DNA from: a virus | DNA: 64,000 bases | IMG/VR virus record: IMGVR_UViG_3300020475_000546 | Span: 1-64,000 of that record | Reading direction: 5' to 3' (one strand) | Shown here: positions 47,114 through 63,048 of the stretch, piece by piece | Position numbering within the stretch: position 1 is the first letter of the stretch | Layout: the number at the start of each line of letters is the position of its first letter | Position numbers and translations under genes: made by a program | The notes under the pieces: model-generated | What the model saw: only the letters and a program-made list of their open reading frames with translations | What the model was told of the DNA's origin: nothing | Databases searched by the model: none

Positions 47114-48443
47114 TCTTCGTCACCTCTTCTTTCATCAAGTCAAACTCACTTACTGATAACTTCTTACTCTTCAAAAACTTCACTTGTTTCTTCTTATCCA
47201 ATGAATCATGCACCATCACAGTAAGAGCATTCTTATCGTGTCTGAGAGCCTTCTCTAACATGAATGCTTCGTGATTCTCGGATGTTATGTGCGGTAAAGC
47301 CATATCTAATGCTTTCAAAACACCTTTTTCTCCTTCTATTATTAGGCCACCCGTTGAAGGCTTTACACATTCAACCCCTATTTCTTTGTTCAAAGCATTC
47401 GAATACCAAGGTGCAGTAGGGGCTTTGAAGTTTAGCTCTATGCGGGGATTAGACCTTACATCAAACTTAACCTTTGAACCGCTTTCAATTAACCCTGCTA
47501 AGAATCGGGGTGCATCCTTTAGAATTACATCCCGCCTCTTTATGTCGTAAAATAAACCTCTTCCAACCGACTTACTAACTACGCCAACAGATACAATATC
47601 ATACAAAAATCCATGTGATTTGATTAGTGATGAAATCTCAGCTGGACTTGCACTAACGCCATTAAACTTCAAAGTGTGAGCATTCAAAGCACCCTTGCGA
47701 ATTAGTAAATCTGAACATTGTTGTAGTATGTTTCTTTCACGATTTGAAATACGCTGATCGGCATCAACAACAGATTTCCATATATTGTATGAATCATTTT
47801 TTGCTTCCGATGTATTTGCAGATTCCCACATCTTAACGAATCTTCGAAAAGGTATTCCTAATCTTTCGGAATATCTGTTTAGCCTATCATAATCAACATC
47901 GGTCAATGGTAATTGCTTTACTAAATGTGGAGATACACCGGGAAAAGAGGATATTATGGCTCTTTTTTCTGCAAGAAGCAAAGGGTATAATGCGTCTAAA
48001 GCTTCTAACTCTTGTTTTTGTATCAATAATGAAGCCATTTCAGAACCAGTCATGCCGAAGTTATTCAAAAACCAATTCTTATCAAGAGATAATTGAATGT
48101 CGGTAGGTAGTCCATCCTCAGTCGGTGCAGATACTTTTTCATCAACATCGGCAGACGGAGATGAGCTTTGCGAATTGTTCATCCCTTCAATCTCCGCCCC
48201 TTGTCCTTCTTGAGTCTTAGCCCTCTTAGCCCTGTCAGCATCTGTTTTCTGTGATGATTGCAGATCTTTCGTAGCTTGCTCAACCTTCTCTTGGGCTATT
48301 CTTGTAGCTTCAGAACCTATGCCCGTAGCTAAACCACCTACTGCTGCTAAACCTGCCGCAGCTAATGGGTTCTTCCTAATGTCAAGTGAGTCTGCAAGAG
48401 TTTCAACACCGACCAATGGCTCAATGTATCTTCTCTCACGCAT
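47106..48443 (-). CDS. Unknown 445-aa protein between terminase and portal
   Basis: The frame extends upstream, but the ATG at 48443 has GGGGTGG before it and overlaps the terminase stop by 8 nt, so 445 aa. The first 45 residues include a small hydrophobic, Gly/Ala-rich segment ('AAAGLAAVGGLATGIGS') and could touch a membrane. Residues 45-110 are charged and disordered. Residues 120-400 form a helix-rich, well-ordered domain ('LLIQKQELEALDALYPLLLA', 'RLGIPFRRFVKMWESA') without catalytic motifs. The C-terminus is Lys-rich. I do not recognise it; a minor head, internal or ejected protein would fit its position. Confidence 0.7.
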   Translation of the reverse strand: MRERRYIEPLVGVETLADSLDIRKNPLAAAGLAAVGGLATGIGSEATRIAQEKVEQATKDLQSSQKTDADRAKRAKTQEGQGAEIEGMNNSQSSSPSADVDEKVSAPTEDGLPTDIQLSLDKNWFLNNFGMTGSEMASLLIQKQELEALDALYPLLLAEKRAIISSFPGVSPHLVKQLPLTDVDYDRLNRYSERLGIPFRRFVKMWESANTSEAKNDSYNIWKSVVDADQRISNRERNILQQCSDLLIRKGALNAHTLKFNGVSASPAEISSLIKSHGFLYDIVSVGVVSKSVGRGLFYDIKRRDVILKDAPRFLAGLIESGSKVKFDVRSNPRIELNFKAPTAPWYSNALNKEIGVECVKPSTGGLIIEGEKGVLKALDMALPHITSENHEAFMLEKALRHDKNALTVMVHDSLDKKKQVKFLKSKKLSVSEFDLMKEEVTKSG

Positions 48444-49899
48444 CTTGCCACCCCAACCTTCTTTGCCATGTAGCACCGTCAAGTATAACGATGTTCTCTC
48501 TATATTCCTTAGTGGCTTGAACAGATAAAGCCAACGCAATTACCATATCGTCATGCGCCCCCAAGCTCTCCATTTTACCATTCTCAAGCATGGTGAAGTA
48601 AGATAACTCGGTCAATAAAGCATTCATGTGCCTTCGAGTAGCACCTTCATCTTTGTAAGGGATAATCAGATGCTTCTGCTCAAAGTGTAGTTGTAAAGTA
48701 TGTATCAAAGCTTCCTTTCTCATACGACTCATATTGAACGGTTTGATAGGTAAATCGCTTATTTCTTGAAGAACTTGATTGAAAGCCATAGCAAAGTTGT
48801 TCGTTTCTAACTCTATTATGACAGGATTGAATCGAGCGTTTAATTCTATGATTTTGTCTATCTGCTGATTAAAATCCATATTTTTCTCATGATGAACATG
48901 AACGATGCGTTTGTGTCTATTCTCATCCATACCTATTACTATCATGCAAGTATAGTCAGCTCTCCTGTCTGCGCTGATTGCCGGATCCCAACCTATGTAG
49001 TAATTCAGATGCTCATCTGTATCGGGATAGTAAGACAACGATAGAGAGTCATCCTTCACACGCTCTAGTGTTTCTTCTGGGAATAAGCTAGACTCGCTTG
49101 CTATCGGTTTGCATAGATACTCTCTTGTAAATGCAATAGAAGTCATCTCACCCTTACGAGCATTCAACGCATCAAGATTCCATCTCTCCGGCCATAGTGG
49201 TTCTCCTGTAGCTTCATTGATTGCGGGGTATTCTCTAACGCAATAACCATCCAAGCCCTTTAGCTCAGAATACAAGTCAGTATATGAGAAAGGCGTTCCT
49301 ACAATACACATCTGAGCTGTGTGGTGCAGAACAGGTAGAAGTGCGGTATAGAACCATGTAGCTATGGATTTTAGCTGAGTCTGAGCTTCACTAGATAGAA
49401 TATCGTCAAGCACTACAATATCAGGGTGCGCCCCACGAACCGCTTTACCGATAGACATAGCTCGAATAGATGAACGGTTTGTGAACTTGAATAACTGCTT
49501 AGCCCAACCTCTCTTTGGTTTTAGGTGAGCTAAAGCAGGTGTAGTCACTATAAGCTCATCCATCTTACTCATGTGGTCAATAGACTGGTGCTGACTGTGG
49601 CTGAAGAATAGAACCTCAGTATTGGGATTGTAAGCCATCTTCCATAGCAAGTAGCATCTAAAGAATACAGATTTGCCGTGATCACGACTTGCTATAACAC
49701 ATATCTTACTGTTATTCTCGGCATTCTCATACCATTCTTTGTGAAAGTGTGCAAGCTGGAATCCGCATATATCCTCAAAGAAGTATTGGAAGTCACGCCT
49801 TCCCATCTCAAAATCAACCTTACTGGCTAATCTTTGAACTGCGTCACTCAGTATCCCACCCCGCAGGTAGCAAGCTTGTATCAGCTCTTGGTGCTTCAT
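48436..49899 (-). CDS. terL: Terminase large subunit
   Basis: A 487-aa protein from the ATG at 49899; a GTG at 49917 and an ATG at 49806 are alternatives, and the 5' end overlaps the previous gene by 56 nt. The ATPase half shows a Walker A-like 'VIASRDHGKSVFF' (about 69-79) and Walker B 'DIVVLDDIL' (about 160-168), with the coupling 'CIVGTPFSY' after it. The nuclease half starts 'YYIGWDPAISADRRADYTC' (catalytic D about 305), continues with 'PVIIELETNNFAMAF' and ends with 'GAHDDMVIALAL', the RNaseH-type acidic triad pattern. It pumps DNA into proheads and cuts it. No separate nuclease is needed. Confidence 0.93.
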   Translation of the reverse strand: MKHQELIQACYLRGGILSDAVQRLASKVDFEMGRRDFQYFFEDICGFQLAHFHKEWYENAENNSKICVIASRDHGKSVFFRCYLLWKMAYNPNTEVLFFSHSQHQSIDHMSKMDELIVTTPALAHLKPKRGWAKQLFKFTNRSSIRAMSIGKAVRGAHPDIVVLDDILSSEAQTQLKSIATWFYTALLPVLHHTAQMCIVGTPFSYTDLYSELKGLDGYCVREYPAINEATGEPLWPERWNLDALNARKGEMTSIAFTREYLCKPIASESSLFPEETLERVKDDSLSLSYYPDTDEHLNYYIGWDPAISADRRADYTCMIVIGMDENRHKRIVHVHHEKNMDFNQQIDKIIELNARFNPVIIELETNNFAMAFNQVLQEISDLPIKPFNMSRMRKEALIHTLQLHFEQKHLIIPYKDEGATRRHMNALLTELSYFTMLENGKMESLGAHDDMVIALALSVQATKEYRENIVILDGATWQRRLGWQDA

Positions 49900-50764
49900 C
49901 TCCCTTGTTGAATGCACTTGATGGTAATAGGCTCATATCATCTCCTTGTCTTGCATCAAAACCTGCGTTTTTGAGAGCATCTTCTGGTGAGTCGCCCTTG
50001 ATTAAATCGGGCTGAAGTGAGAATGTGGGTGTATCATCGTGCGTAACTTCGGGTGGTTGTTCCTCAGTTAGGGATGCAAAGCCATCATTGAAGAACGGGT
50101 TTGCGAATGGATCCTTAACGACAGTCCAGCTATCTGCTACTTGATGTGGTTCTGAAGCCCTTTCTAATAATTCATCAGCTACCGTTTCATCTATGTCGGG
50201 ATTTTCCATAAGAATATCCTTAGCCCGTTGAGTCCTTCCTCTTTCTCGTTGAATATGTTCGGGCATAGGCGGTGTAGGCGCACCCTCAGCTCCGCCTCTA
50301 AATCCTGTTCGAGGAATCTCAGCTCTAACGGTTTCTGGTCGGATTTCGCTTGGCTCAACACTCTCACGCTCTCTTGGTGGTGGTGTGGCCGTGACGGAAT
50401 CTACCGACTCAGGCATAGCAGGTGGCGGTGGCCTGTTCATAGCCTCTAACGCTCGATGATGAGCTTCAACGCCAGCTTCTAAACCATCGGGGTGTCTAAT
50501 CAGATTATTGACTATGTATGCGTTTCGAGCCTCTTGTTCCCTTTGCTTCTGCTTTACCTTTCTTGCGAAATTGTCAAAGAAGCCCTTTTCCAAATCCTCA
50601 TCGCTTTCGGGTTTTGGCTTTGGCTTTGGCTTTGGTTTGCCTGTCTTTGGTAATGGCCCACCACGCTTTCTTCTCTCATCCATCTGATTCCAATCATCAG
50701 ACGAAGGTAATCTCCAACCCTTAGCAACATTCCAAGCTTGGTCAAATATATCATCTGTAGGCAA
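49844..50764 (-). CDS. KAW-tagged disordered protein upstream of terminase
   Basis: A 306-aa protein. The start is a TTG at 50764, strongly supported by GGAGGT 8 nt upstream. The N-terminus is 'PTDDIFDQAWNVAKGWRL', the F-D-x-A-W-x-V-x-K tag. It continues with a KP dipeptide stretch ('KPKPKPKPK'), charged helices and a Pro-rich disordered region, then 'DSWTVVKDPFANPFFND', which looks like a second, diverged tag copy. No enzyme motif. It precedes the terminase, with overlap. A packaging or scaffold adaptor is possible; it may carry the tag to localise itself. Confidence 0.65.
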   Translation of the reverse strand: MPTDDIFDQAWNVAKGWRLPSSDDWNQMDERRKRGGPLPKTGKPKPKPKPKPESDEDLEKGFFDNFARKVKQKQREQEARNAYIVNNLIRHPDGLEAGVEAHHRALEAMNRPPPPAMPESVDSVTATPPPRERESVEPSEIRPETVRAEIPRTGFRGGAEGAPTPPMPEHIQRERGRTQRAKDILMENPDIDETVADELLERASEPHQVADSWTVVKDPFANPFFNDGFASLTEEQPPEVTHDDTPTFSLQPDLIKGDSPEDALKNAGFDARQGDDMSLLPSSAFNKGDEAPRADTSLLPAGWDTE

Positions 50765-51875
50765 GTCGAACTACCTCCGTACTTCGCCTGTCCGTTATCT
50801 CCAATCTTGCTTTATGGATTCCATAGTAATGGTTGAGAATATCTTCTGAAGCTTGTATAGCAGATGTATCTCCCGCCATCAGCCTCCTTTGTTGATTCTG
50901 AGCGTTAGCCATATCTTGTCTGCCCTGCCCTCTTTGATATGCGTTATACCCTGCACCTAACACATTTGACATACCACCCGTCAAAAGACCGAGATAAGGG
51001 TTAGTAGCAAAGCCACCCTTTGTATTCGCCCGCTTGTTCGCCTCGGTTAATGCCGTCTGAGAATCCGCTATTGCTGTATTTCCAAATGCTCTTTTCGCTT
51101 CTTCTCCAAGATTATACGGTTGCTGATTCTGAGCAGGTTGCCCCTCAGAAGCGTTTTGTTCGGGCGGTGCTTGATTCACTGGCGTTTCTGTTGTGGAGGC
51201 TTGTGGTGGCGATGCTTGTGGTATGCCTTGCCCTGCTGACCCTAATCCTACATTGGATTGGTTAGCTCGGACTTTGTTGTAAGCACCTACGCCTTGGCCG
51301 ATTAGATTACCTACGCCCGATGCGAATTGACCCATGAAATCGGTAGCACTACCACCTGTGGCTGCTCCTGTTTGAGATTCAACCAATGGATCTTGACCGC
51401 CTTGTATATTGCCCATTGTGTCCTTTGCTTGGTCTGAAGCTAACCCCGGAGCATTCCGCATGAGCTTTGTTTGTGCAGCGTTTTGACCTGCTAACTTACT
51501 ATCCACCTTCTGTTGTTCTAAAGCTGCATTTTGCTGTTCTACAAGACCTGATTGTTTATCTGGACTCATTCCCGTTCTCTCTCTTTGAGCCGCAGCTCGA
51601 TTAGATGCGGTTGGTAGATTACCAGAAGCCATAGCTGAACCTGCATCTCTCACAGCTCCAAGAGTATTCATTACAGAACCGCCTGTTCTAACTCTTTGAT
51701 TATCGGGTGCTTCTGGGTTTTTGCCCAAAGGAAGTGGATTTCTGCTTTGACCACCTGCCGACAAATCCCCTTGCGTTCCTGTAACTCTATCAAGAGCATT
51801 AACGGCCATTTGCCCCAAGCGTTTTTCAAGTTGTTCTTGCTCATAGAGGCGGGCTTTGAGAATCAAATCATTCAT
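50751..51875 (-). CDS. Gln/Asn-rich low-complexity protein, unknown
   Basis: A 374-aa protein whose ATG overlaps the previous gene by 8 nt, with GAAGGTGG upstream. Residues 1-35 are helical ('LILKARLYEQEQLEKRLGQM'). The middle is Gln/Asn/Gly/Ala-rich with repeated 'QNAA..Q' character, including alternating hydrophobic patches that resemble ejected or internal virion proteins ('GSATDFMGQFASGVGNLIGQ', 'GLLTGGMSNVLGAGYNAYQR'). The C-terminus is basic and ends 'STEVVRLAYR'. Similar Gly/Ala helices occur in internal head proteins that form a DNA-ejection conduit. The role is unresolved. Confidence 0.65.
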   Translation of the reverse strand: MNDLILKARLYEQEQLEKRLGQMAVNALDRVTGTQGDLSAGGQSRNPLPLGKNPEAPDNQRVRTGGSVMNTLGAVRDAGSAMASGNLPTASNRAAAQRERTGMSPDKQSGLVEQQNAALEQQKVDSKLAGQNAAQTKLMRNAPGLASDQAKDTMGNIQGGQDPLVESQTGAATGGSATDFMGQFASGVGNLIGQGVGAYNKVRANQSNVGLGSAGQGIPQASPPQASTTETPVNQAPPEQNASEGQPAQNQQPYNLGEEAKRAFGNTAIADSQTALTEANKRANTKGGFATNPYLGLLTGGMSNVLGAGYNAYQRGQGRQDMANAQNQQRRLMAGDTSAIQASEDILNHYYGIHKARLEITDRRSTEVVRLAYR

Positions 51876-53712
51876 GGAATGCCACCTTCACTATTTGCAC
51901 CTGTTCATGCTGAACGCCTATTGTCTTAGCGATGTTTCTCCAATCGCCCTTTGAGAATAATATGCTGATTACATCAGAAGTAGGTCTTTGAATGTGCGCC
52001 CCCATCATGGCTATGTCTGTTGGAGAGTTTATATCAAAAACAGGCACATCATAACTATCCTCTAAAACAGCCTTAGCAATCTCCATTTGCACATTTTCAA
52101 GATATTGCTCTATTTGATTTGCATCGTCAGAACGCAAGATAGTCCTGTTTCCGGCTATACGGCCAAGAATTGTAGCTATCTGATCCATAATACCGCCCCC
52201 GCCTATACCCTGTGCATCTGCACCCGTCAATGGTATATTTGTGTTTATACCGCTTTGGGGATTAAGAGTAGGTATTGGTGATGAAACTAATGGAGGTGGT
52301 GTGTTTGCTTCTGGTCGAGCTATTGGGGCTACAGGGGGTTCGGGGGCTTGGGGTGGCGGTGCGGTATGTACTGTAATCGGTTCGGGTCGTTGTAGTACCT
52401 CAGTCGGTTGTTGTACCGCAGCTTGTGAGGGGTCTAATGCCTCAGCTACATTTGGCGGTGGTGCATCGTCATACCATGTAGGTACTGCTGATGATTGAGT
52501 TACATGATGATTGAGTAGAGCTTCTAAGAATCTATTCTTGATACTACCACTTGTAGGCATACCGTTCTGCTTTCTACTTACATCTTCTACGAATTGTGAA
52601 GCTTCCATCTCATCCATGAAATGATGGTCGGTCAAATAGCCTACTACCTTTGGATTAGCCATTCCTGTATCTTTGTCATAGAATGAATGTCTTTGATTAG
52701 ATACCATATTTTTCAACCATGTGGTTTCTCTATGATCGGGGTGTATAACGGCTGAAGGGTTAGTCTGCGGAGCTTGAGTTACTTCGGGGTCAGTACCCTG
52801 CCTCATCTGCATTTCGTGTTCTATCTCCGCATCGGAGAACGGTTGCTCGCCATCATCTGGGCGTATAACACGGCCATAGGTTGATTCTTGGGCATGGTGA
52901 TGATGCCCAGTCATGTGGAATGCCCTGTTGTCTTGCATCCACATTTCCTTTGCGTGGTTCATGGCTGAAGATCTATCCAACCCCTGAGCAAGAGCTTGTT
53001 GAAAATGCTCACGAACTGCGGTATTCATCTGTAAAGCCTGATTATTGTCATTAAACGAAATCAGATTACGATTGCTAAGATCCTTATGCCCTCGGATATA
53101 CCTATCGTTTCTCTTTGTTTCTTCTCTCCCTGAACTTTGTAGTGCTTCTTCATAGGGTCTTGCCCAACCTTCTTCCCTTTTCGTATTAGAACTCGTTATA
53201 TGAGTAATCAATTGATTATTAGAATTAAAGGGGTTTGCGTTTTTTGTTCCCGGTAGGAGTACCTGCTTAGGTTCGGCAGAAGCACCATGTACCCAAGGCA
53301 CATTAACTTGAACAGAACCAGTCCTATCCGATTGGAACGCCATAGGCATAGGTGGTATTCCCCTACCTGCATTGATTTGATTTTGTTGTTGGATTGCAGT
53401 ATTGATGATAGGTGCGCCCGCTTGTATAGCTAACTTTGCGGCATTCTCAAACTGAGGGTCAGTAGGGCCACTATGCAATACCTCATACACTTCAGATGTA
53501 ATCAAGGCATTACGAATAGCCATGTCTATTGCGTCTATCTCAACCCCCGATAACAAACCTTCTCGAACATTATGATGGTCTAATTGCATTAAATCTTGAA
53601 CCGCAGCTCCCTGACCATTGACAAAGGACTCTATCACTTGGTCGAGGTCATACACTCCCCAACCCTTTTGGATAGTGAAATAATTAGGGTCAAACATCCA
53701 TGAACGGCTCAT
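51868..53712 (-). CDS. Large unknown protein of the packaging region (614 aa)
   Basis: Its ATG overlaps the upstream stop (ATGA). The N-terminal 130 residues are helical ('VQDLMQLDHHNVREGLLSG'). The middle is His-rich ('AFHMTGHHHHAQESTY', 'YLTDHHFMDEMEASQF') with a glutamine/proline-rich linker (430-500). The last 100 residues are a compact helical domain ('QIEQYLENVQMEIAKAVL', 'DVISILFSKGDWRNIAKTIG') that could be a helix-turn-helix-like or portal-contacting domain. No family is recognised. Confidence 0.65.
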   Translation of the reverse strand: MSRSWMFDPNYFTIQKGWGVYDLDQVIESFVNGQGAAVQDLMQLDHHNVREGLLSGVEIDAIDMAIRNALITSEVYEVLHSGPTDPQFENAAKLAIQAGAPIINTAIQQQNQINAGRGIPPMPMAFQSDRTGSVQVNVPWVHGASAEPKQVLLPGTKNANPFNSNNQLITHITSSNTKREEGWARPYEEALQSSGREETKRNDRYIRGHKDLSNRNLISFNDNNQALQMNTAVREHFQQALAQGLDRSSAMNHAKEMWMQDNRAFHMTGHHHHAQESTYGRVIRPDDGEQPFSDAEIEHEMQMRQGTDPEVTQAPQTNPSAVIHPDHRETTWLKNMVSNQRHSFYDKDTGMANPKVVGYLTDHHFMDEMEASQFVEDVSRKQNGMPTSGSIKNRFLEALLNHHVTQSSAVPTWYDDAPPPNVAEALDPSQAAVQQPTEVLQRPEPITVHTAPPPQAPEPPVAPIARPEANTPPPLVSSPIPTLNPQSGINTNIPLTGADAQGIGGGGIMDQIATILGRIAGNRTILRSDDANQIEQYLENVQMEIAKAVLEDSYDVPVFDINSPTDIAMMGAHIQRPTSDVISILFSKGDWRNIAKTIGVQHEQVQIVKVAFHE

Positions 53713-54884: not shown

Positions 54885-55381
54885 TTATGCAACCCCCTTC
54901 TTGCTATGTCATCCTCTCTTCTGATTGCCTCTCTTGCTCTATCTCTTTCAAGTTGCCTAATACCTTTGAATGCCGTTGCGACACGCATGGGTAGGTTGAG
55001 ATACCAATGAGATAAAGATGGAACTCTCGCATAGGATTTAGCTAGTGGGAGATATGCGTTCTTGAGCTTGTTCATCTGCTTCATAACATCAACAAAGTCC
55101 ATTTGTTCGGTGCTTTGTTCGTCTAAGTATGAATAAATCGCAAATCTTGTGTTTATGTTATGACTGTATATTTCATGCGATACTTCTTCCGCCATATCGG
55201 TCAAACCAAAGGGTATCATTGATTCTCCCCATTCCTTGATTACATAGTCCATAGCGTCAAGCAATTCGAATAGACCATCGTATGTAGTAGGCAAATCGCC
55301 ATGCAATACTGATTCGTAGTTGCTATACGGCCCTTCCTTGAGCTGTAATTCCTCCGGCCTTCTTCCGATATGGTAGCTCAT
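54881..55381 (-). CDS. Helical protein between zinc protein and basic protein, unknown
   Basis: A 166-aa protein with ATGA overlap on its 5' side. It is mostly helical ('TYDGLFELLDAMDYVIKEWG', 'DVMKQMNKLKNAYLPLAKSY'), with Arg/Asp-rich C-terminal helices ('RQLERDRAREAIRRED'). No motif is recognised. Its position after a possible small terminase suggests a packaging-related helper. Confidence 0.65.
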   Translation of the reverse strand: MSYHIGRRPEELQLKEGPYSNYESVLHGDLPTTYDGLFELLDAMDYVIKEWGESMIPFGLTDMAEEVSHEIYSHNINTRFAIYSYLDEQSTEQMDFVDVMKQMNKLKNAYLPLAKSYARVPSLSHWYLNLPMRVATAFKGIRQLERDRAREAIRREDDIARRGLHK

Positions 55382-56088
55382 TCATCCATCACCCCCGCTT
55401 CTGCTAACATCTGCCTAATCGTTCTCCACTCGTCTGGTGCCTTCTCCGAGAAATACTCTTGCATTATGGTGATTACAGACACACTTTCAACCTTATCCAC
55501 TTCCTTGAGCTTATCCATCCATTTGGCTAACTCTCCCAATGTTTCACGGACTTCACGGTGCATCTTGATGGCTAAATCCAAATCCTTGCTTGATACCATA
55601 TCTGCATTCTCAACCATCTGTTCCTCTAATCGGTCTAAGTGCATAGATAGCAAAGTATCCATTCTATTCATGTTAGATTCAACACGATTCAAGCTATCGT
55701 GCGTAGTTTGAATTGCTTTCGGTATAACTTCGATATTTGCCTGTCTTTGGATTAGAGGCTTGGTATGTTTCTCCATGTGATGAGTAATGGTCAATTCGGG
55801 AATATCTAATTCTTCCGAAAAATCAATTATTGTAGCTCTATGGTCAAGAATGGCCGATTCTATTTCAGACCTTTCTGGATGAGTACAGACTGGGCAATCC
55901 ACATTTGACTCATTGAAGAAAGCACCTGCATGGTTTCTCATGTGCCTGTGAGCTAAACCATTAGCCCAACCTTGATCTCTATCTACATCATTAGTGTCAA
56001 GCTTCCCAGCTCTTATGTCTAATTCAATAGAATCTCTTTCTGGATGTTGGCAGAAGGGACAATTCTTGCGTATCCGCCTACCACCCAT
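55378..56088 (-). CDS. Tandem zinc-helix protein, candidate small terminase or regulator
   Basis: A 236-aa protein. No ribosome binding site is clear at the ATG (56088); AATAA ends 24 nt upstream, so it may be leaderless like 35728. Two similar zinc domains are visible: 'NCPFCQHPERDSIELDIRAG' ending in H-x3-H (about 10-53), and 'DCPVCTHPERSEIESAILDH' followed by 'ELTITHHMEKH' (about 64-108). This C-x2-C...H-x3-H with a helix-turn-helix-like middle occurs in phage DNA-binding proteins and some small terminases. A coiled coil (130-220, 'LDLAIKMHREVRETLGELAK') could oligomerise it. Small terminase is a reasonable guess. Confidence 0.65.
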   Translation of the reverse strand: MGGRRIRKNCPFCQHPERDSIELDIRAGKLDTNDVDRDQGWANGLAHRHMRNHAGAFFNESNVDCPVCTHPERSEIESAILDHRATIIDFSEELDIPELTITHHMEKHTKPLIQRQANIEVIPKAIQTTHDSLNRVESNMNRMDTLLSMHLDRLEEQMVENADMVSSKDLDLAIKMHREVRETLGELAKWMDKLKEVDKVESVSVITIMQEYFSEKAPDEWRTIRQMLAEAGVMDE

Positions 56089-56122: not shown

Positions 56123-56524
56123 TTACGCTTCATGCTTGCGTAGATGTATGCCACAATAACCCTTTTGTGATTTGTCCGATATACGCCTTTGACACCTATT
56201 TCCAGATGATGTTACTGCTATGCACCTTTCTTCATCAGTTGGGTTTCGATAGCACTCAACGCACACCCCCGTTTGATACTTTGATTTCTTTTTCAATGGC
56301 TTCCCACACCGAGAACATTCTTTCTTGCGAGGCAATACTTGATCGGCTAAAGCGTGTAAATCATCAATCCCTAACTTGCCGTCATTATTCCTATCAGCTA
56401 CAGCCCTTATGTCTGCAAAATTGACCTTTCCATCCCTGTTAAAGTCAAGTGGTGAATACCCCTTGTTTTGAGAAGGCTGTTGATAGAAGGCCGCTGGTGT
56501 AGGTGGGCGGTACTGCCCCGCCAT
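56123..56524 (-). CDS. EF-hand/dockerin-like plus zinc-finger protein
   Basis: A 133-aa protein from the ATG at 56524 (a TTG two codons upstream is possible). Residues about 25-60 contain two calcium-loop repeats, 'DFNRDGKVNFADI' and 'DRNNDGKLGIDDL', in the spacing of a dockerin or paired EF-hand. The C-terminus has 'CSRCGKPLKKKSK' with 'GVCVECYR' and then 'RCIAVTSSGNRCQRR', 'GYCGIHLRKH', a zinc module of the C-x4-T-x2-G-x-RC...C-x2-H type. Calcium plus zinc binding in one small virus protein is unusual. The function is open. Confidence 0.7.
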   Translation of the reverse strand: MAGQYRPPTPAAFYQQPSQNKGYSPLDFNRDGKVNFADIRAVADRNNDGKLGIDDLHALADQVLPRKKECSRCGKPLKKKSKYQTGVCVECYRNPTDEERCIAVTSSGNRCQRRISDKSQKGYCGIHLRKHEA

Positions 56525-56541
56525 CGGCAAAGATGGGGGGC

Positions 56542-56796
56542 TTACCGAAAAGCCGCATATTGTCTAACTGCAAGGAAGAATGTAAAGAATACTCCAAATA
56601 TAGCAACCATAGAGAAAGTCGGATCCATAGACGGGCCTTTCCAAAGCATTACAGATGTAATTAGAAGCATGAAAGATATGATAAAAATCATCGTTGCACT
56701 TTCAACCAACATTTTGTTCGGTGCAAACATTTCCATTGTCGTATCAGCCATTGTCGTTCCATAAGGTGTTCTTTGTTCCCTATCTTCTTCCTTCAT
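56542..56796 (-). CDS. Small two-helix membrane protein
   Basis: An 84-aa protein. Its start overlaps the preceding stop (TAATG). Two membrane segments are clear: 'MIFIISFMLLITSVMLW' (about 36-52) and 'FSMVAIFGVFFTFFLAV' (about 61-77), with a short loop and an acidic N-terminus. It is encoded in the GTPase cluster. It could be a holin-like exit protein or a partner of the GTPase; no family is recognised. Confidence 0.7.
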   Translation of the reverse strand: MKEEDREQRTPYGTTMADTTMEMFAPNKMLVESATMIFIISFMLLITSVMLWKGPSMDPTFSMVAIFGVFFTFFLAVRQYAAFR

Positions 56797-56957
56797 TATT
56801 CTTCTTCCCCCTTTGTTGAGCCGCCAAGACCCGAAAACATACTACTAACGAAAACCTTTCTTCGTCTATTCTTTTTCAAACGATACTTACCAGAAAGAAA
56901 ATGCTTCTTGCGAGCTTTGAACTTACTCCAGTATCTTGCTCTAACGCCTTCCTTCAT
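56796..56957 (-). CDS. Small basic protein (53 aa), unknown
   Basis: An ATG at 56957 follows GAGGGGATTCAA, a strong ribosome binding site, and the stop at 56796 overlaps the next ATG (TAATG). The 53-aa product is very basic ('KFKARKKHFLSGKYRLKKNR' then 'RRKVFVSSM') with an acidic end (GEEE). It is short enough to be missed by ORF length cut-offs. Nucleic-acid or phospholipid contact is plausible. Confidence 0.75.
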   Translation of the reverse strand: MKEGVRARYWSKFKARKKHFLSGKYRLKKNRRRKVFVSSMFSGLGGSTKGEEE

Positions 56958-56967
56958 TTGAATCCCC

Positions 56968-57600
56968 TCATATTAGAGCTGCTGCCCCTGCACCCATAGC
57001 ACCCATACCGCCTTGGTTCTGCATTTGCTGACCTAACAGGCCACCGACTAAGCTACCAAAGAATCCCGGTTGAGGGTTCATCATAGGGTTATGTGCTTGT
57101 AGTAGCATTTGTGTTTGTTGTTGATTCATCTGAAGCTGTTGTTGAGCTGATTGCCTCAAAGTCTGCAAAGTCAAAGCAAGGTTTTCAGGAGATAGTGTTG
57201 CTATGTTAGCGGGGAGCGTAGTTGTGTCTAAACTGAGCTTACCATCTTCACCTGCTGCAAGTTGAACATTAGAAAAGAAGTCCTTTAGCGATAGTGTAAC
57301 AATTTCTGCTACTAAATCCATCATCATGCTAAATTGATTAGCTACAATGAATTGATTTAGAGGGTCGTAATACTGCAACAATCTTGATGTGGCGATAACT
57401 GGGTCATTAGCCATCTGTTGCATCATGGGATTTTGCCCCATCTGTTGCATCATCATCGGATCCATCATTCCACCCGCAGCACCCATAGCACCCATTCCAC
57501 CTTGCATTCCATATCCTCCCATACCTGTCATTCCCATGCTATTTGATGCACCGAATTGTTGTGTTGGGGTTTCATTATTCCTGTTAAAAAACCAGCCCAT
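56968..57600 (-). CDS. Met/Gly/Gln-rich protein, unknown
   Basis: Starts at the second ATG (57600), which has GGAG 8 nt upstream; 210 aa. Residues 1-65 are Met/Gly/Ala-rich. Residues 70-180 are a helical domain ('LNQFIVANQFSMMMDLVAEI'), and the end is Gln-rich, then Gly-rich and mildly hydrophobic ('GFFGSLVGGLLGQQMQNQ'). Its composition is like virion proteins that form helical oligomers or touch membranes. It sits directly after the HNH-like cysteine protein of the GTPase cluster. Confidence 0.65.
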   Translation of the reverse strand: MGWFFNRNNETPTQQFGASNSMGMTGMGGYGMQGGMGAMGAAGGMMDPMMMQQMGQNPMMQQMANDPVIATSRLLQYYDPLNQFIVANQFSMMMDLVAEIVTLSLKDFFSNVQLAAGEDGKLSLDTTTLPANIATLSPENLALTLQTLRQSAQQQLQMNQQQTQMLLQAHNPMMNPQPGFFGSLVGGLLGQQMQNQGGMGAMGAGAAALI

Positions 57601-57615
57601 TTTCATTTCTCCTTT

Positions 57616-58599
57616 CTAATTTGTTTGTTGCCCTACTCCCGTTGATTGAGGACTTTGATTAACCCCTGCCTGTGCAGACGGTATTGTATTTTGGGTCATA
57701 TTGGCGTTTTGAAGGCCAATCGCTTGCCTTTGGGACATAGCGTCACTCATCTGCAAAGCTCTAAGGTCAAATGTAACCGACACTAAATCGGCCACACCTG
57801 TTATTGGATTGGGATATTGAGTTAGGACAATGCCCTTCTTGTGTTTGGTGTCTTGCTGAATCATCTTGAAGAATGGTTCGTATTTTAACAAGGATTCTGT
57901 TGTTGAACGGTTTTGGGCAGAAGAACCCCCCATCAAAGCACTCATACCGGGAACTTTGAGAAACTTAGTACCTTTGCTGACTGGGCGTAAGCCATCGGCA
58001 GACATTTCATCCTCTTGCACTAGCTTTCTCAATGTATGATAAATATGCAGATGAGCCGGACATAGTGTGCTATTCATTTCATCACCATGATCGCCTCTTG
58101 TTCGAGCATGAGGGATTATTGAGTTGCCTGTTTCATCGTCAAACCAATACAAATCTGCTAAACTGACCTTACCGGGCAAATCATAATCAATAATTTGGGC
58201 GTAATCGTTATCCCCTTCAAGAAAACGCCTCACATCAACACCACAGCAAGCACACTCAAATGTTCCATTATATCTGTAAATACGCCAAAGACCCAACAAA
58301 TAGCTCGGTGGCCTCAACGCTTTTCGCAATTTCTTGATGTTTTTCTTTCGTGCCTTTTTGGGATTATCGGGGTTTTGCACCAATTGAACCTCAACCGTAG
58401 GTACTACTTCCTCAGCTCCACCGTAGCCACCAGTAGCTCCGGCACTTGCGATTTCAGCTCTTTGTTGGGCTTTCAACATAGGAAATGCAAGCCCTGTGTT
58501 GGCCGCTACCTGTTTTAATTGTTCATCGGTTAAACCTGCTAATTTTGCGTTGGGATTGCCCGCAATCCAGTTGGGCAAGATGTTGCCTGTCCAGCTCAT
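57616..58599 (-). CDS. Cys/His-containing protein in the GTPase cluster (327 aa)
   Basis: The ATG at 58599 is chosen over a TTG at 58626 because GGTTGGGAT precedes it. Residues about 115-205 hold 'FECACCGVDVRRFL' and 'HARTRGDHGDEMNSTLCPAH' followed by 'LHIYHTLRKL', a C-x2-C...H...C-x2-H arrangement that resembles an HNH-like or zinc-binding fold without a clear catalytic triad. Flanks are charged and disordered. The C-terminus is Gln/Asn-rich ('GVNQSPQSTGVGQQTN'), as in virion proteins. Could be an inactive nuclease fold used structurally; uncertain. Confidence 0.65.
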   Translation of the reverse strand: MSWTGNILPNWIAGNPNAKLAGLTDEQLKQVAANTGLAFPMLKAQQRAEIASAGATGGYGGAEEVVPTVEVQLVQNPDNPKKARKKNIKKLRKALRPPSYLLGLWRIYRYNGTFECACCGVDVRRFLEGDNDYAQIIDYDLPGKVSLADLYWFDDETGNSIIPHARTRGDHGDEMNSTLCPAHLHIYHTLRKLVQEDEMSADGLRPVSKGTKFLKVPGMSALMGGSSAQNRSTTESLLKYEPFFKMIQQDTKHKKGIVLTQYPNPITGVADLVSVTFDLRALQMSDAMSQRQAIGLQNANMTQNTIPSAQAGVNQSPQSTGVGQQTN

Positions 58600-58642
58600 G
58601 TTAGCTATCCCAACCTTGACAACCAATTAAGCATTCCGTGTT

Positions 58643-59371
58643 TTACAGTAGTTCTACAATAGATATTAACACCTTTTCCACATTTACGCCATGTTGTGCC
58701 GATATTGCATCTATATCGGCTCTAACTCCGGCCTTTCTAAGCCGTCTTAACTCGTTTCTAAAGGGGGCAACGATGGGATGTTCCCTTTGCAGGTTATTAT
58801 CCCAAAGGTATTGAGCTTGAGGCGACCACCATAAATCCATTTTATTCACTAAGAATACTACGACTTTCGGCATATAGTTGCTACGAGAAGTTTTTTTCGC
58901 CTTTCTGGATATGGCCGTGCTAACATCTTTTCGAGTTATGTTGTCTATTAAATATCTAAATGAAGCCAAAGAATCCTTAGCAAAAGACGGACTTGTTAAT
59001 ACTCTATGATCCACCATGAATATGACTATCTCGCACTTACGGCCAAACATATCTTCTATCCAGAGATTCCTAAATTGAGCTTGCCCTGCAATATCCGAAT
59101 TAGAAATTGGGATCCTATCTTTTTTGTATTTGATTAACTTTCTATGAGGTTTAGGGGCTTTGGCGTGACCATTGACCATAGGGTGGGATGTTCGCATCTC
59201 AATTGGTATCGGGTCTATGTCGCCCGGAACGGTCAGATATTGGTCTAATGTAGTCTTACCAGTCATACTTGGGCCGTATATTCCAATACGATATGGCCTA
59301 AGAATACGGTAAAACTTCTGCAAGGCGTGAACCGAGCTAATTAGCAGATGCCCTGCGATGACCGCACTCAT
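58643..59371 (-). CDS. Ras/Arf-like small GTPase
   Basis: A 242-aa protein with all four main guanine-nucleotide motifs in order: G1 'GIYGPSMTGKTTLDQYL' (P-loop 33-41), G3 'SDIAGQAQFRNLW' (D93 to G96-Q97, the Ras 'DTAGQ' and Arf 'R.LW' style), G4 'VVFLVNKMDLW' (NKMD 176-179) and G5 'AISAQHG' (223-228). A 'VIFMVDH' strand (116-122) sits as in the family. Residues 5-24 are an amphipathic, hydrophobic helix before the core, a possible membrane anchor. Ras/Arf-type GTPases are normally host proteins; a copy between a virus's membrane-protein genes is very unusual. Its start overlaps a 6-codon mini-ORF (59388-59368). GTP binding is very likely. Confidence 0.85.
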   Translation of the reverse strand: MSAVIAGHLLISSVHALQKFYRILRPYRIGIYGPSMTGKTTLDQYLTVPGDIDPIPIEMRTSHPMVNGHAKAPKPHRKLIKYKKDRIPISNSDIAGQAQFRNLWIEDMFGRKCEIVIFMVDHRVLTSPSFAKDSLASFRYLIDNITRKDVSTAISRKAKKTSRSNYMPKVVVFLVNKMDLWWSPQAQYLWDNNLQREHPIVAPFRNELRRLRKAGVRADIDAISAQHGVNVEKVLISIVELL

Positions 59372-59384
59372 ACGGCCAGCCCAC

Positions 59385-59606
59385 TCATATTTGGTCTTTC
59401 AAATACTCCCAAAGCCCGACTGGGGATGTTCCTAATTCGTCTAATATAATTAAGATGGCGAAAGTTCCGCCTATGCCTATTGCTAATGCTACAAATGTGC
59501 GAACCCAACCCGCCATTCGTTCCATTTTTCTTTCGTAGGAGTTTTCTGCTAATATCTGAGCCATTTCTGCTGCTTGTCTTTCTTGTCTTGTTGAAAACGG
59601 CCACAT
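59385..59606 (-). CDS. Single-helix membrane protein in the GTPase cluster
   Basis: A 73-aa protein with ATG after GGTGGGGACTAA. A charged helix (5-32, 'RQERQAAEMAQILAENSY') leads to one membrane segment ('FVALAIGIGGTFAILIIL', about 38-55) and a short acidic/aromatic tail. The ORF in the +1 frame here is only a shadow. Encoded just before the GTPase and after a two-helix membrane protein; likely a partner in the same assembly. Confidence 0.7.
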   Translation of the reverse strand: MWPFSTRQERQAAEMAQILAENSYERKMERMAGWVRTFVALAIGIGGTFAILIILDELGTSPVGLWEYLKDQI

Positions 59607-59622
59607 TTAGTCCCCACCTACT

Positions 59623-60090
59623 TCAGTTGTTGGATCGCCCATCATCCTCATCTGAAGCAGGTGTGTTGGGAAGTCCAAATACATCTCTTCCTTGAGATTG
59701 TTGCTGCATAACAGCCATTTGCCCCTGTAGCTCTTGGTAATATTGTTGTTTTTGCATACGCCTGTTGGTCATTTGCATTTGATTTCTAAACCATTTGTCA
59801 TAACTCGCTTCCTTTGAAAACTCAGCTCTCATAGCCATACTATCTCTTATTCCGCCTACTTGGAACAGAACCATAGATGTGCATAAAAAGCCAAATGCGA
59901 TTAGTCCGTATTGTAATCCCATTTCGGCTGGTGTTGCATTCGGTAGATACCAATCTTTGTGAGATATGCCTACTGCAACGCCTGTAAGAAGCGATTGCCA
60001 TAGAAGCATAGCTATCAGATTAACATCAACCCTATTCCCTGTTTGTTCAGCTGGTGGTTGCCACATTGGTATTTGTGATGATCCATTCAT
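59623..60090 (-). CDS. Two-helix membrane protein with Gln/Met-rich tail
   Basis: The ATG at 60090 is preferred because GGAAGG lies 8 nt upstream; 155 aa. It has two membrane segments: 'LIAMLLWQSLLTGVAVGI' (about 25-42) and 'GLIAFGFLCTSMVLFQV' (about 61-77). Then follows a long polar helix rich in Gln/Met ('QMTNRRMQKQQYYQELQGQM') and an acidic end. The layout suggests a membrane-anchored coiled coil. It is the first of three small membrane proteins around the GTPase. Confidence 0.7.
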   Translation of the reverse strand: MNGSSQIPMWQPPAEQTGNRVDVNLIAMLLWQSLLTGVAVGISHKDWYLPNATPAEMGLQYGLIAFGFLCTSMVLFQVGGIRDSMAMRAEFSKEASYDKWFRNQMQMTNRRMQKQQYYQELQGQMAVMQQQSQGRDVFGLPNTPASDEDDGRSNN

Positions 60091-60094
60091 TTTC

Positions 60095-60238
60095 TTATCC
60101 TTCCTTTTGCTCATCTATGAGCCTAAAGTAGTGCTGCAACGCATGATTCACATACGATGATTTGGATTCTCGACCCCTTTCTTTCTCCATTCTGCGGTAT
60201 AATTCTTCCCACATCACTACCGATACATGACGGCTCAT
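60095..60238 (-). CDS. Ribbon-helix-helix-like DNA-binding protein
   Basis: The ATG at 60238 gives 47 aa: 'SRHVSVVMWEELYRRMEKER' then 'KSSYVNHALQHYF'. The strand, helix, turn, helix pattern with a basic strand is that of Arc/CopG/MetJ-type ribbon-helix-helix dimers. An upstream in-frame ATG (60340) would give 81 aa but overlaps the preceding gene by 44 nt. The start overlaps the stop of a 21-codon mini-ORF (60300-60235), suggesting coupled translation. It could act on the palindromes at 62106-62118 or on TGTCA-N4-TGACA elements; this is inference. Confidence 0.65.
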   Translation of the reverse strand: MSRHVSVVMWEELYRRMEKERGRESKSSYVNHALQHYFRLIDEQKEG

Positions 60239-60300
60239 CGTATCGGCCTGTAATATGAGAGCCTTATGAGCGTTGTTATAGATGACAGGGTTGAAATCAT
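60235..60300 (-). CDS. Possible 21-aa coupling mini-ORF
   Basis: ATG overlaps the stop of the Gp88-like gene (ATGA) and its own TGA overlaps the ATG of the ribbon-helix-helix-like gene. The 21-aa peptide is hydrophobic/basic (MISTLSSITTL...). It may only allow ribosomes to reinitiate at the next gene. No homolog is recognised. Confidence 0.3.
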   Translation of the reverse strand: MISTLSSITTLIRLSYYRPIR

Positions 60301-62084
60301 ATTTTACGCATGAATTGAGTAATATCCAAACCAGAATCAACGACTCTCGGTTTTAGGTCATCACCATAGGCGACTCTAAGATTTTGTCGTGAGTTAAGAT
60401 TTTGAGGACGGTTTTTGGTACTGCCTTGATGAACATTGAAACTTATCGGTTCAGTTCCATGCCAACAATCATCACAATTGTAATCTTCACAATTACCTCC
60501 TAACATAGAAGCGGGGCATGACTTAACTGAAGGATCTAAGGAAGATGCCGAGCTTGCCTTTATTCGAGGATGCTCTAATAATTCTTCATAACCTGCTGAG
60601 AAATCCTCTCCCAAGAGAGGCAAACCATACGCTTCATTTATTTCATTATCAACAGCTTGTCCTATCCATGGTAATGACAACATGACATTCATATTCTTAG
60701 GTATAGCATCCCATCCTCTTCTATCTAAGAATGATTTGACCCCTGCCGATTCTCTTGTAGGCAACCAATGTTCTAATTGAGGTGTTGCTGAAGCTATATC
60801 GTTCAACATAGCGAAATGTTGCGCCCCATAATCACGATCTGTTTCTTCTTCACCTTCTTGTAAATCCCCACTATCCATGTGCCTAAACTTGTTAGTGCCG
60901 TAATAAAACGATTCAGCTGGCGCACGGTGAGCAAAGGCAGAAGCGTAGCTCAAAGGGTCATCATCCGTTAGTCCGTGAAAGTTCCTCCATAGTTGAGTCT
61001 GTTTTGGGTTCAATGGGTATCTGCCTTGCTTTGCATAACACATTTTACCGTCTGAGCCACCGCAGGTTGAACCAGCTACCATACCTAATCGGCCACCTAC
61101 ATGACACAGATGCACAGGCAAACCGAAGGAAGCTCCGGGCATTTTATCCGGTGCGCCAAAACCTCCACTCGGATTCATACTAACTATTTTATTGGCTTCG
61201 CTCACGGGTCTTTTACCCGAAGTTCGCCCCATTGTGTCTGAAAACTTAGGGATTTTGACTTGTTCATCAACATCCCATCTAACCTTTCTATCGTCTTTGT
61301 ATCTATTCATTATGTCCTTGTTGTTTTCTAACCAATCAAATATCTGGCGACCATCACCCGGATATTTGCCCCCAAAGAACCGATCCCACCAAAACATATC
61401 ATCGGGGTCGCCAAGAGCTTTCAGTAGCAAAGAGCGAATGGTCATCGGTTCGCCAGTATGAATATCTTGGAATTGTTGGGTGAAAGGCAGGTGTTTTGAA
61501 TCGCCTCTTGGCTCGAAAGGTGTGCCGTCTTTTTTCCAACCGCCCGCATGAATGTCGCCTCTTCTGCCCGCATCAACGGTTTGCTCTTGCGATCTGTATG
61601 TTATTTCACTGGATAACGCTTCAGCAAAGTCCTCACTAAGATTCGCAGCTTCGTTTGCAGGGTTAAACAGCGACACAGCTAATTCCATGCGTTCATCTTC
61701 AGAAAGATTGGGGTTATGCTCAAACCTTGAAAACTGCGTTCTAAACTCATCTAACAAATCACGGTATCTGTTTATCTCGGAATGAGGTAGCAAACCCAAA
61801 GGTCGAGGATAAGGCAGGGGGTTAGAGAAGTATCTTTCATCATACGCCTCTCTCTCTTCTTCTGACATTTCTTCCCAATCACGGGGATTGCTACCTTTGC
61901 CGTGAGCTTCTTCCCAATACTCGTTTGGATGCTTTTCTGCATAGCCTTCTGGGACTAATCCAGTAGGATCATATTCAGCTTGAAAATCAAACCTATCGGG
62001 CTTATCATCGGATTCCTTAGTGATAGACCAACCCACTTCAAAAGGGCTAACGCTACCACTCATGCTAACAATGTGTATTACCAT
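60297..62084 (-). CDS. Gp88-like cysteine-rich protein with degenerate KAW tag
   Basis: A 595-aa protein from the ATG at 62084, which has no ribosome binding site; CATTATG ends 24 nt upstream. Residues 13-23 ('SPFEVGWSITK') are a diverged KAW tag. The C-terminal 290 residues fit the mycobacteriophage gene-88 family: 'HLCHVGGRLGMVAGSTCGGS' with 'KMCYAKQGRY' (C327, C341, C349), then 'FRHMDSGDLQEG', 'LEHWLPTRESAGVKSF' and a cysteine-rich end 'KSCPASMLGGNCEDYNCDDC'. That family has the C...CYA and R-H-x2-SGD motifs and no known biochemical function. Residues 40-290 are acidic and helical, specific to this protein. Confidence 0.75.
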   Translation of the reverse strand: MVIHIVSMSGSVSPFEVGWSITKESDDKPDRFDFQAEYDPTGLVPEGYAEKHPNEYWEEAHGKGSNPRDWEEMSEEEREAYDERYFSNPLPYPRPLGLLPHSEINRYRDLLDEFRTQFSRFEHNPNLSEDERMELAVSLFNPANEAANLSEDFAEALSSEITYRSQEQTVDAGRRGDIHAGGWKKDGTPFEPRGDSKHLPFTQQFQDIHTGEPMTIRSLLLKALGDPDDMFWWDRFFGGKYPGDGRQIFDWLENNKDIMNRYKDDRKVRWDVDEQVKIPKFSDTMGRTSGKRPVSEANKIVSMNPSGGFGAPDKMPGASFGLPVHLCHVGGRLGMVAGSTCGGSDGKMCYAKQGRYPLNPKQTQLWRNFHGLTDDDPLSYASAFAHRAPAESFYYGTNKFRHMDSGDLQEGEEETDRDYGAQHFAMLNDIASATPQLEHWLPTRESAGVKSFLDRRGWDAIPKNMNVMLSLPWIGQAVDNEINEAYGLPLLGEDFSAGYEELLEHPRIKASSASSLDPSVKSCPASMLGGNCEDYNCDDCWHGTEPISFNVHQGSTKNRPQNLNSRQNLRVAYGDDLKPRVVDSGLDITQFMRKI

Positions 62085-62436: not shown

Positions 62437-62874
62437 TTAGAAATGCTCATTCCAATGTTCTTCGCAAAGCCAGCTCGCTGATCCTTCTCCGGCATTAACG
62501 CCTACGGATGGTTTCATGCACTCGCCCGTTTCATCACCATAATCACAGATTCGCTCGTCTGGATAATTTGGGTTTTCCTTTTGTGAACCCGGCCCGTGAG
62601 AGTAAGCTATATCAGCACACTTTTCACACACGCCACCATCGGGTGAAAATCTGTCGCAAACCTCAACCGAACATTCAGAAATACTTTCTATCGGCATCCC
62701 CGTTTCTTCATCCACATCCCAGCTCACAGGTTTCTCCATGTCATGGTCAATAATTCGGAATCCTCTCCGTTCTCCTTCTTCGTGATATTCTTTTACCCTC
62801 TCGCCCCATTCTCGGAGCTTTTCGGGGTCATCTGAAAACTTGACTATTTTCCAAGCCTTGTCGAATGCGGTCAT
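62437..62874 (-). CDS. KAW-tagged Cys-rich protein 3
   Basis: 145 aa from the ATG at 62874; the ATG at 62883, overlapping the preceding stop, is the alternative. The N-terminus 'MTAFDKAWKIVKFSDD' is the tag. Then follow a charged helix ('KLREWGERVKEYHEEGERRG'), 'VSWDVDEETGMPIES' (about 52-66) and a cysteine-rich part with 'CSVEVCDRFSPDGGVCEKC' and a late CDYGDETGEC. A WDVDE segment is also in the Gp88-like protein. Zinc binding is likely; function is unknown. Confidence 0.7.
   Translation of the reverse strand: MTAFDKAWKIVKFSDDPEKLREWGERVKEYHEEGERRGFRIIDHDMEKPVSWDVDEETGMPIESISECSVEVCDRFSPDGGVCEKCADIAYSHGPGSQKENPNYPDERICDYGDETGECMKPSVGVNAGEGSASWLCEEHWNEHF
62851..62874 (-). repeat. 24-bp 5' coding repeat, copy 3
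   Basis: The first 24 coding bases (through the codons for MTAFDKAW) are identical to copy 2 (63018-63041), including synonymous positions, while the rest of the gene differs. Copy 1 (63421-63444) differs at one base. Confidence 0.8.
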
Positions 62875-62879
62875 CTTAA

Positions 62880-63041
62880 TCATCTCGTATTTTCCAAATG
62901 TTCATTATGACATTCTCGGCATAAGCCATGATAAAAAGGGCCATCAAAAGGCACACGGGCAACAATTGGCTTATTTTCATTACATGAGTCGCATTCTTCT
63001 TCGTCTTTCACAATATCCCAAGCCTTGTCGAATGCGGTCAT
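62880..63041 (-). CDS. KAW-tagged zinc-binding protein 2
   Basis: 53 aa. The frame opens earlier, but the ATG at 63041 follows GGGAGGTGAGG, an excellent ribosome binding site, and starts the tag 'MTAFDKAWDIVKDEEECDSC'. After the tag there are CxxC (18-21) and 'GLCRECHNEH' (CxxCxxxH), a minimal zinc ribbon. It is essentially a tag plus a zinc module. Encoded 7 nt after the first tagged gene. Confidence 0.75.
   Translation of the reverse strand: MTAFDKAWDIVKDEEECDSCNENKPIVARVPFDGPFYHGLCRECHNEHLENTR
63018..63041 (-). repeat. 24-bp 5' coding repeat, copy 2
   Basis: Identical to 62851-62874 over 24 bases, and to 63421-63444 except for one synonymous base. Confidence 0.8.
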
Positions 63042-63048
63042 CCTCACC

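Follow-up and report, generated by a model that had tools for sequence, protein, structure and literature searches.

A Ras-superfamily GTPase in a conserved late-operon cassette with membrane-protein genes of a predicted archaeal tailed virus

In the window, the 64,000-nucleotide stretch of DNA that was analysed (positions 1 to 64,000 of the IMG/VR virus record IMGVR_UViG_3300020475_000546), the open reading frame (ORF) 59371-58643 encodes a genuine Ras-superfamily G domain. Its gene stands in a cassette with three genes for small membrane proteins, in an order that is maintained in related viral contigs. The virus is predicted to be a magrovirus, a tailed virus of Poseidoniales, which are abundant ocean archaea. 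We propose that the cassette encodes a GTP-controlled module that remodels the membrane when virions are assembled or leave the cell, in which the GTPase would act together with the co-encoded membrane proteins; we put the chance of this proposal being correct at slightly below even.

The GTPase and its family

The gene and the motifs of its product, as derived from the ORF list, motif inspection, an AlphaFold (AF2) model and Foldseek, are:

58643..59371, minus strand: small GTPase of 242 amino acids (aa), ATG start
Residues of the protein: helix 2-24; G1 33-41; candidate G2 R60-T61; G3 93-97; G4 176-179; G5 approximately 222-225

As an earlier note on this DNA had stated, G1 (GPSMTGKTT), G3 (DIAGQ), G4 (NKMD) and G5 (ISA) follow each other in the proper order. 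Combined pattern and tblastn searches over IMG/VR yielded successive, overlapping sets of 16, 236 and 266 relatives, with identities to the window GTPase reaching down to about 33%. In a set of 79 dereplicated viral homologues, residues G33, G38-K39-T40-T41, D43, R60-T61, D93, G96, N176-K177 and D179 are invariant in all 79 sequences, as are W104, D107, D121 and R123, while G5 reads S-A or A-T. Compared with the Arf switch II signature WDxGGQ...W, the viral proteins keep D-x-[AG]-G-[QEDH] and W104, whereas the leading tryptophan is absent. The N-terminus shows no clear transmembrane (TM) segment; instead the amphipathic helix proposed in the earlier note is found at residues 2-24 of the model, with a best hydrophobic moment of 0.27-0.42 in the sampled members.

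An earlier AF2 model, built from 17 sequences, had a predicted local distance difference test score (pLDDT) of 65, and the model built from 79 sequences reaches a pLDDT of 90.5 and a predicted template-modelling score of 0.87. In the latter, the helix of residues 2-24 is followed by strands and helices in the canonical small-GTPase order, interrupted by conserved inserts at residues 47-76 (a long switch I), ∼145-170 and 180-202. A Foldseek search against the PDB retrieves Rab27B, Rab43, Rap1 and Rab6 with E-values of ∼1e-8 and target-normalised template-modelling scores of mostly 0.55-0.72, the matches to Rab, Rap and Ras having a probability of 1.00. A test for an unrelated P-loop family thus returned the Ras-superfamily fold instead. 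A chance P-loop is ruled out by the invariant motifs and the confident fold; matches to RecA/AAA/Sak4-like ATPases are weak and confined to the P-loop, and this assignment, to which the fold gives no support, was rejected as well. Among viral models the best Foldseek matches are giant-virus proteins, most of them named Ras, Rab or Ran, and none of the top 50 is a tailed-virus protein.

At the sequence level the best profile match in the PDB is entry 8oun, a 'GTP-binding protein' (E 2.2e-6, covering the helix and G1-G3), followed by Arl8. The 8ou* entries are probably Asgard Arf-like proteins. Pfam matches of the window GTPase to Arf, Roc and Ras stay below threshold (E 0.006-0.05); its relatives match these three families again, as well as GTP_EFTU and RagA. 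The cut-off of the Arf family PF00025 is missed, with 16.5 versus 22.3 bits for the window GTPase and a best E-value of 8e-4 among 17 members, and nothing of note in PHROGs matches the window protein. Membership in the family of the archaeal GTPase ArvA was rejected because only 43 columns align and the G3 motif differs, despite the ArvA-like character of 28 of 29 matching regions from Thermoplasmatota (see below). Since the protein is not an ArvA member and fails the Arf cut-off, it belongs to a separate viral family within the Ras superfamily. The description in the earlier note of a Ras/Arf-like GTPase therefore holds as far as the superfamily and the Arf-like features are concerned, whereas assignment to a single eukaryotic subfamily does not.

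A fixed gene order in the late operon

The genes of the conserved unit are, besides the GTPase gene and in order of transcription:

59623..60114, minus strand: 2TMa, 2-TM protein of 163 aa with a long Gln/Arg-rich C-terminal tail (Kyte-Doolittle; 82/84 loci)
59385..59606, minus strand: 1TM, 1-TM protein of 73 aa (Kyte-Doolittle; 42/42 dereplicated loci)
57616..58626, minus strand: Cys/His protein of 336 aa, inner ATG at 58605 (84/84 loci)
56968..57606, minus strand: Met/Gln/Gly-rich protein of 212 aa with a conserved core (84/84 loci)
56542..56796, minus strand: 2TMb, 2-TM hairpin protein of 84 aa with a short basic C-terminus (Kyte-Doolittle; 83/84 loci)
55378..56088, minus strand: p236 (83/84 loci)
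51868..53712, minus strand: p614, large conserved late protein with which the conserved block ends downstream, ahead of terL (82/84 loci)
48436..49917, minus strand: terL, terminase large subunit (PF17289 nuclease domain), the anchor of the late operon

Hidden Markov models (HMMs) of the window genes were run on 84 sequences, namely the window, a short fragment from the same record and 82 other contigs. The order 2TMa-1TM-GTPase-Cys/His-Met/Gln-2TMb-p236-p614-terL, including the strand, is fixed in the 82 other contigs. In the two loci without 2TMa (L025 and L029) the contig itself begins immediately upstream of the 1TM gene. The 1TM protein is missed by its HMM in a divergent clade, where position and pattern reveal it, so that it is present between 2TMa and the GTPase in all 42 dereplicated loci. 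The linkage of the GTPase to the membrane genes, the loss of which in relatives had been set beforehand as a refuting outcome, was thus recovered, and the comparison of relatives at 33-97% identity supports a strict and old association. The conserved unit is larger than first described, as it also includes the Cys/His protein, the Met/Gln-rich protein, p236 and p614 and extends up to terL. Conversely, the 53-aa basic ORF at 56796-56957, which had been counted as a member of the cluster, does exist, but is confined to the window and to L001, the closest relative, and therefore falls outside the unit.

The presence of the GTPase gene was also assessed in contigs chosen by their major capsid protein (MCP) or TerL, without reference to the GTPase. 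Twelve of 18 long MCP contigs contain it; the other six end less than ∼17 kilobases (kb) upstream of the MCP gene, and the GTPase gene is expected ∼21 kb upstream. Likewise, 22 TerL contigs have 10 kb of upstream sequence. In 16 of them the gene lies inside these 10 kb, and the remaining six already count among the GTPase loci. All sampled contigs that extend far enough upstream of terL or the MCP gene have the GTPase. An accessory gene is thereby ruled out, contigs without it stopping too near MCP or TerL, and the sampled contigs indicate that the GTPase gene is a core gene of the magrovirus late (virion) operon. Ratios of non-synonymous to synonymous substitutions (dN/dS) of ∼0.025-0.15 across the cassette, where dS could be estimated, indicate that its ORFs are under purifying selection.

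Pairwise distances of the GTPase correlate with those of its neighbours (r 0.78-0.90 overall), and they track p236 best, with r 0.90 overall and 0.88 within group 1. Together with the linkage to p236, p614 and terL, which is unbroken in two deep clades, this correlation would fit a module for head assembly and packaging, in which the GTPase serves as an assembly chaperone or timer for p236, p614 and TerL, while the membrane proteins anchor prohead initiation. However, Druskaviridae, which have a related MCP, begin their late operon with terL and the portal gene and have no such cassette; in the member HCTV-1 terL and the portal gene lie near the start of the late operon and the cassette is absent. 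In addition, we know of no tailed virus that needs three conserved membrane proteins for packaging. We consider the packaging alternative unlikely.

Proteins of the cassette

The genes from 2TMa (60114-59623) via 1TM (59606-59385) and the GTPase (59371-58643) to the Cys/His protein (from 58626) are packed on the same strand with gaps of ∼13-16 bases. The numbers of TM helices in the three membrane proteins, two, one and two, agree with those first reported; the start of 2TMa at 60090 does not, this position being an inner ATG of the ORF 59623-60114. All three membrane proteins keep their size and position across the loci. The 1TM protein consists of an N-terminal segment of ∼36 aa, a single TM helix and a short C-terminal tail, with F4, T6, N22 and R30 conserved. 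Size and layout are all that the 2TMb protein has in common with small two-TM holins.

The Cys/His protein belongs to no Pfam family. Its invariant residues, C125, C189-P-x-H192-x-H194-x-x-H197, K91, R93 and R118, make it a probable zinc-binding partner. Protein p236 comprises two CxxC/H-rich halves, a helix-turn-helix-like region and a coiled coil, with SP-x-x-W conserved in the tail, and is a candidate terminase small subunit. The Met/Gln-rich protein resembles a structural or scaffolding protein. This resemblance, the location of the cassette among structural genes of the late operon and the high conservation of the GTPase are in line with another explanation, according to which the proteins are virion components that are delivered at infection and act on the membrane of the new host, in genome entry or in a superinfection block. 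The sequences are without any mark of virion proteins, though, and we regard delivery with the virion as improbable.

Three further minus-strand genes lie in or next to the cassette. The ORF at 56123-56530 encodes a 135-aa protein with an EF-hand/dockerin-like calcium loop and zinc-binding cysteines, and occurs in ∼51 of the loci. Directly upstream of 2TMa, an 81-aa ORF (60095-60340) is ribbon-helix-helix-like and could be a regulator of the late operon. The 595-aa protein at 60297-62084, just upstream of the cassette, contains a GP88 domain (PF17338, E 5e-11) and is found in 44 of the loci.

Source virus

The complete record of 74,349 bases encodes a portal protein (PF04860), TerL (PF17289), an SU10-type MCP (PF17236) and an S78 protease (PF04586). 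The best INPHARED relatives of the MCP are those of Druskaviridae, at 33-34%, in accordance with the published clustering of Druskaviridae and magrovirus MCPs (PMC8651126). The Poseidoniales assembly AG-422-I20 contains a close relative, on a contig of 106 kb, with identities of 83% for the MCP, 88% for TerL, 80% for the portal protein and 61% for the GTPase. By its name, this assembly may be a single-cell genome. The Druskaviridae-related MCP and the relative in AG-422-I20 identify the source, as judged from sequence, as a magrovirus of Poseidoniales.

A short motif, F-[DES]-x-A-W-x-[IVL]-[VAT]-K, recurs at mostly N-terminal positions in ∼17-18 otherwise unrelated late proteins of this virus. 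It has 19 six-frame matches in the 74 kb, against 0.01 expected after shuffling, at sites within window positions 62437-64000 and 49844-50764, near 34917, and in the remainder of the record (L254, record positions 64001-74349). Among relatives, 11 matches occur in the 20.7 kb of L005 and 0-3 in the others tested. The motif looks like a docking or virion-cargo tag.

GTPases in the host and in other archaea

The viral GTPase profile finds no match in 193 of 194 Poseidoniales genomes, the single match being the viral contig itself, which rules out a recent capture from the host. Neither Arf-family proteins nor OapB were detected in 60 Poseidoniales genomes (0/60 each), and an ArvA profile, run without a positive control, gave 0/97. 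A search for Ras proteins returned mostly weak matches in frames of 370-680 aa, probably larger GTPases. Strong Ras matches in one assembly (G067:C7 and G067:C15), one set of which is split by stops, are probably eukaryotic contamination. The sampled Poseidoniales thus seem to have almost no small Ras GTPases and, unlike other Thermoplasmatota, no Arf-family, OapB or ArvA-like proteins.

These results bear on the view that the GTPase imitates a cellular small GTPase, in signalling, polarity or defence evasion, and that its linkage to the membrane genes reflects conserved operon order only. The Ras-like fold and the captured Rab and Ras proteins of giant viruses are compatible with such mimicry. 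However, the hosts sampled, with no match for the Arf family or OapB, offer almost no small Ras GTPase to imitate, and the same partners are kept in a fixed order across 33-97% identity. There is also no convincing PADLOC match, for which reason a defence gene was rejected. Mimicry of a host protein is therefore a slim prospect.

In the wider phylum Thermoplasmatota, 93 of 390 genomes match the viral profile, mostly with E-values of 1e-6 to 1e-2, and 28 of the 29 matching regions that were fetched contain ArvA-like GTPases of ∼211-238 aa. One ArvA-like gene that was checked lies next to a gene for OapC (PF09845, E 5e-24); the OapC-like start 'MPHQCLKCGK' is seen in two further regions. In the same test against the viral profile ArvA proteins score 21-27 bits and archaeal Ras-like controls 1-6 bits, while in profile-profile alignments with the viral family ArvA covers 43 columns, Ras-like proteins 155 and an orphan Arf-like GTPase 177, with the best score. 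This orphan, a PF00025 member from Thermoplasmatota genome G458 (L258/L302; L258 1483-2097, minus strand), scores highest of the cellular proteins that match the viral profile over their full length, at 41.7 bits, and is the sole such match in the 390 genomes. A 248-aa protein and a transposase-like gene are encoded nearby in L258. A plasmid search with the orphan GTPase led nowhere.

Proposed function

The invariant nucleotide-binding motifs, the predicted amphipathic helix and the fixed link to three membrane-protein genes in the late operon together point to the GTP-controlled membrane module proposed above, and the position before terL fits morphogenesis or exit. ArvA from Haloferax, the deletion of which lowers and the overexpression of which raises vesicle release (PMC10927574), provides a functional precedent in Euryarchaeota for a membrane role. 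In the proposed mechanism, GTP binding would free the N-terminal amphipathic helix for insertion into the cytoplasmic membrane, where the GTPase could recruit or organise the co-encoded 1-TM and 2-TM proteins. The Cys/His protein might be an effector, exchange factor or activating protein, and the GTPase and membrane proteins would then curve the membrane or open it while virions are assembled or leave the cell. From these features we infer binding to the membrane, formation of a complex and the stage of the virus cycle concerned.

Several observations weigh against this mechanism. Among the 79 homologues, the position that follows G3 and corresponds to the Gln61 site of Ras (position 97) holds Q (50 sequences), E (15), D (12) or H (2). 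With the catalytic glutamine position variable, a classic hydrolysis cycle is not assured and hydrolysis may need a partner. The TM assignments are from Kyte-Doolittle hydropathy only. The similarity to ArvA is limited to 43 columns, comprising the P-loop and switch I, and G3 is an invariant DTPG in 20 ArvA-like proteins, whereas the viral family has D-x-[AG]-G. Finally, packaging or the assembly of proheads would be an equally plausible task for a cassette near terL.

A further-reaching version of the membrane module, which we hold to be rather doubtful, is that it replaces holin/endolysin lysis, as a virus-owned counterpart of Arf- and ArvA-type vesiculation that provides a non-bacterial exit from hosts without such GTPases. 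Endolysin-holin systems are ill-suited to archaea without a peptidoglycan-like wall, and when the field was reviewed it was not known how most archaeal tailed viruses leave the cell, and isolated archaeal viruses had yielded no holin (PMC4456609). A structure-based survey of 2025 lists putative, untested archaeal-virus holins (PMC12596118). The cassette points to concrete, conserved genes that may bring about exit from archaea without a peptidoglycan-like wall, in viruses that are very common in the ocean.

The view of the earlier note that the GTPase cassette is without tailed-virus precedent is borne out by INPHARED, PHROGs and the top viral fold matches; neither the GTPase nor p614 nor the Cys/His protein has a match in INPHARED. 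No GTPase is mentioned in the magrovirus-related papers PMC10160649, PMC8651126, PMC10768690, PMC5332604, PMC5628999, PMC7318539, PMC13108676 and PMC12999244; Philosof 2017 and Prabhu 2025 may mention one. As judged from the collections and literature searched, a small-GTPase membrane switch as a core gene of a lineage of tailed viruses would be a first.

Comparison with known systems

The partner gene of an MglA-MglB polarity module is missing: no roadblock/LC7 (MglB) domain is found among nine neighbours at E-values up to 1. Phage lysis cassettes (holin/endolysin/spanin) share with the viral unit small 1-TM and 2-TM proteins in a late region close to terL. No endolysin or wall-degrading domain was matched in Pfam by the cassette and neighbouring proteins tested, and no lysis cassette with a GTPase is known to us. 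The Ras and Rab proteins of pithovirus, klosneuvirus, Bodo saltans virus and other giant viruses are likewise virus-encoded Ras-superfamily GTPases; they differ in their eukaryotic hosts and show 10-18% identity, and to our knowledge they do not form a fixed cassette with membrane genes.

Among cellular proteins, the orphan Thermoplasmatota GTPase shares DxGG, DHR and NKxDxW with the viral family, but has other neighbours. Arf/Arl and archaeal Arf-like proteins (8oun, 8oum, Arl8), the best PDB sequence matches, have in common with the viral GTPase a part of the switch II pattern, D-x-[AG]-G-Q followed by an invariant tryptophan, and an N-terminal amphipathic helix, which is predicted in the virus. 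The differences are the viral inserts, in switch I (47-76) and at 145-170 and 180-202, and the lack of Gly2, the viral protein starting with MSAV.

ArvA (HVO_3014 and relatives) resembles the viral protein in having a single G domain (∼220 aa in ArvA) and an N-terminal hydrophobic helix directly before strand β1, and in its archaeal setting with a zinc protein nearby in the operon. Both share the P-loop IGIYGPxxxGKTTL and the switch I motif IPxExR(T), with 40% identity over the 43 columns (probability 96). Unlike the viral GTPase, ArvA has PF01926 as its best Pfam match, and its partners ArvB and ArvC are replaced in the viral unit by the three membrane proteins: ArvB/OapB (PF09846) is absent from the viral record and ArvC/OapC (PF09845) from the ten cassette and neighbouring proteins. 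Given these likenesses, the viral GTPase may work like Arf or ArvA. With its family, the archaeal Arf/ArvA-like GTPases, which are relevant to the origin of eukaryotic membrane traffic, gain a viral branch.

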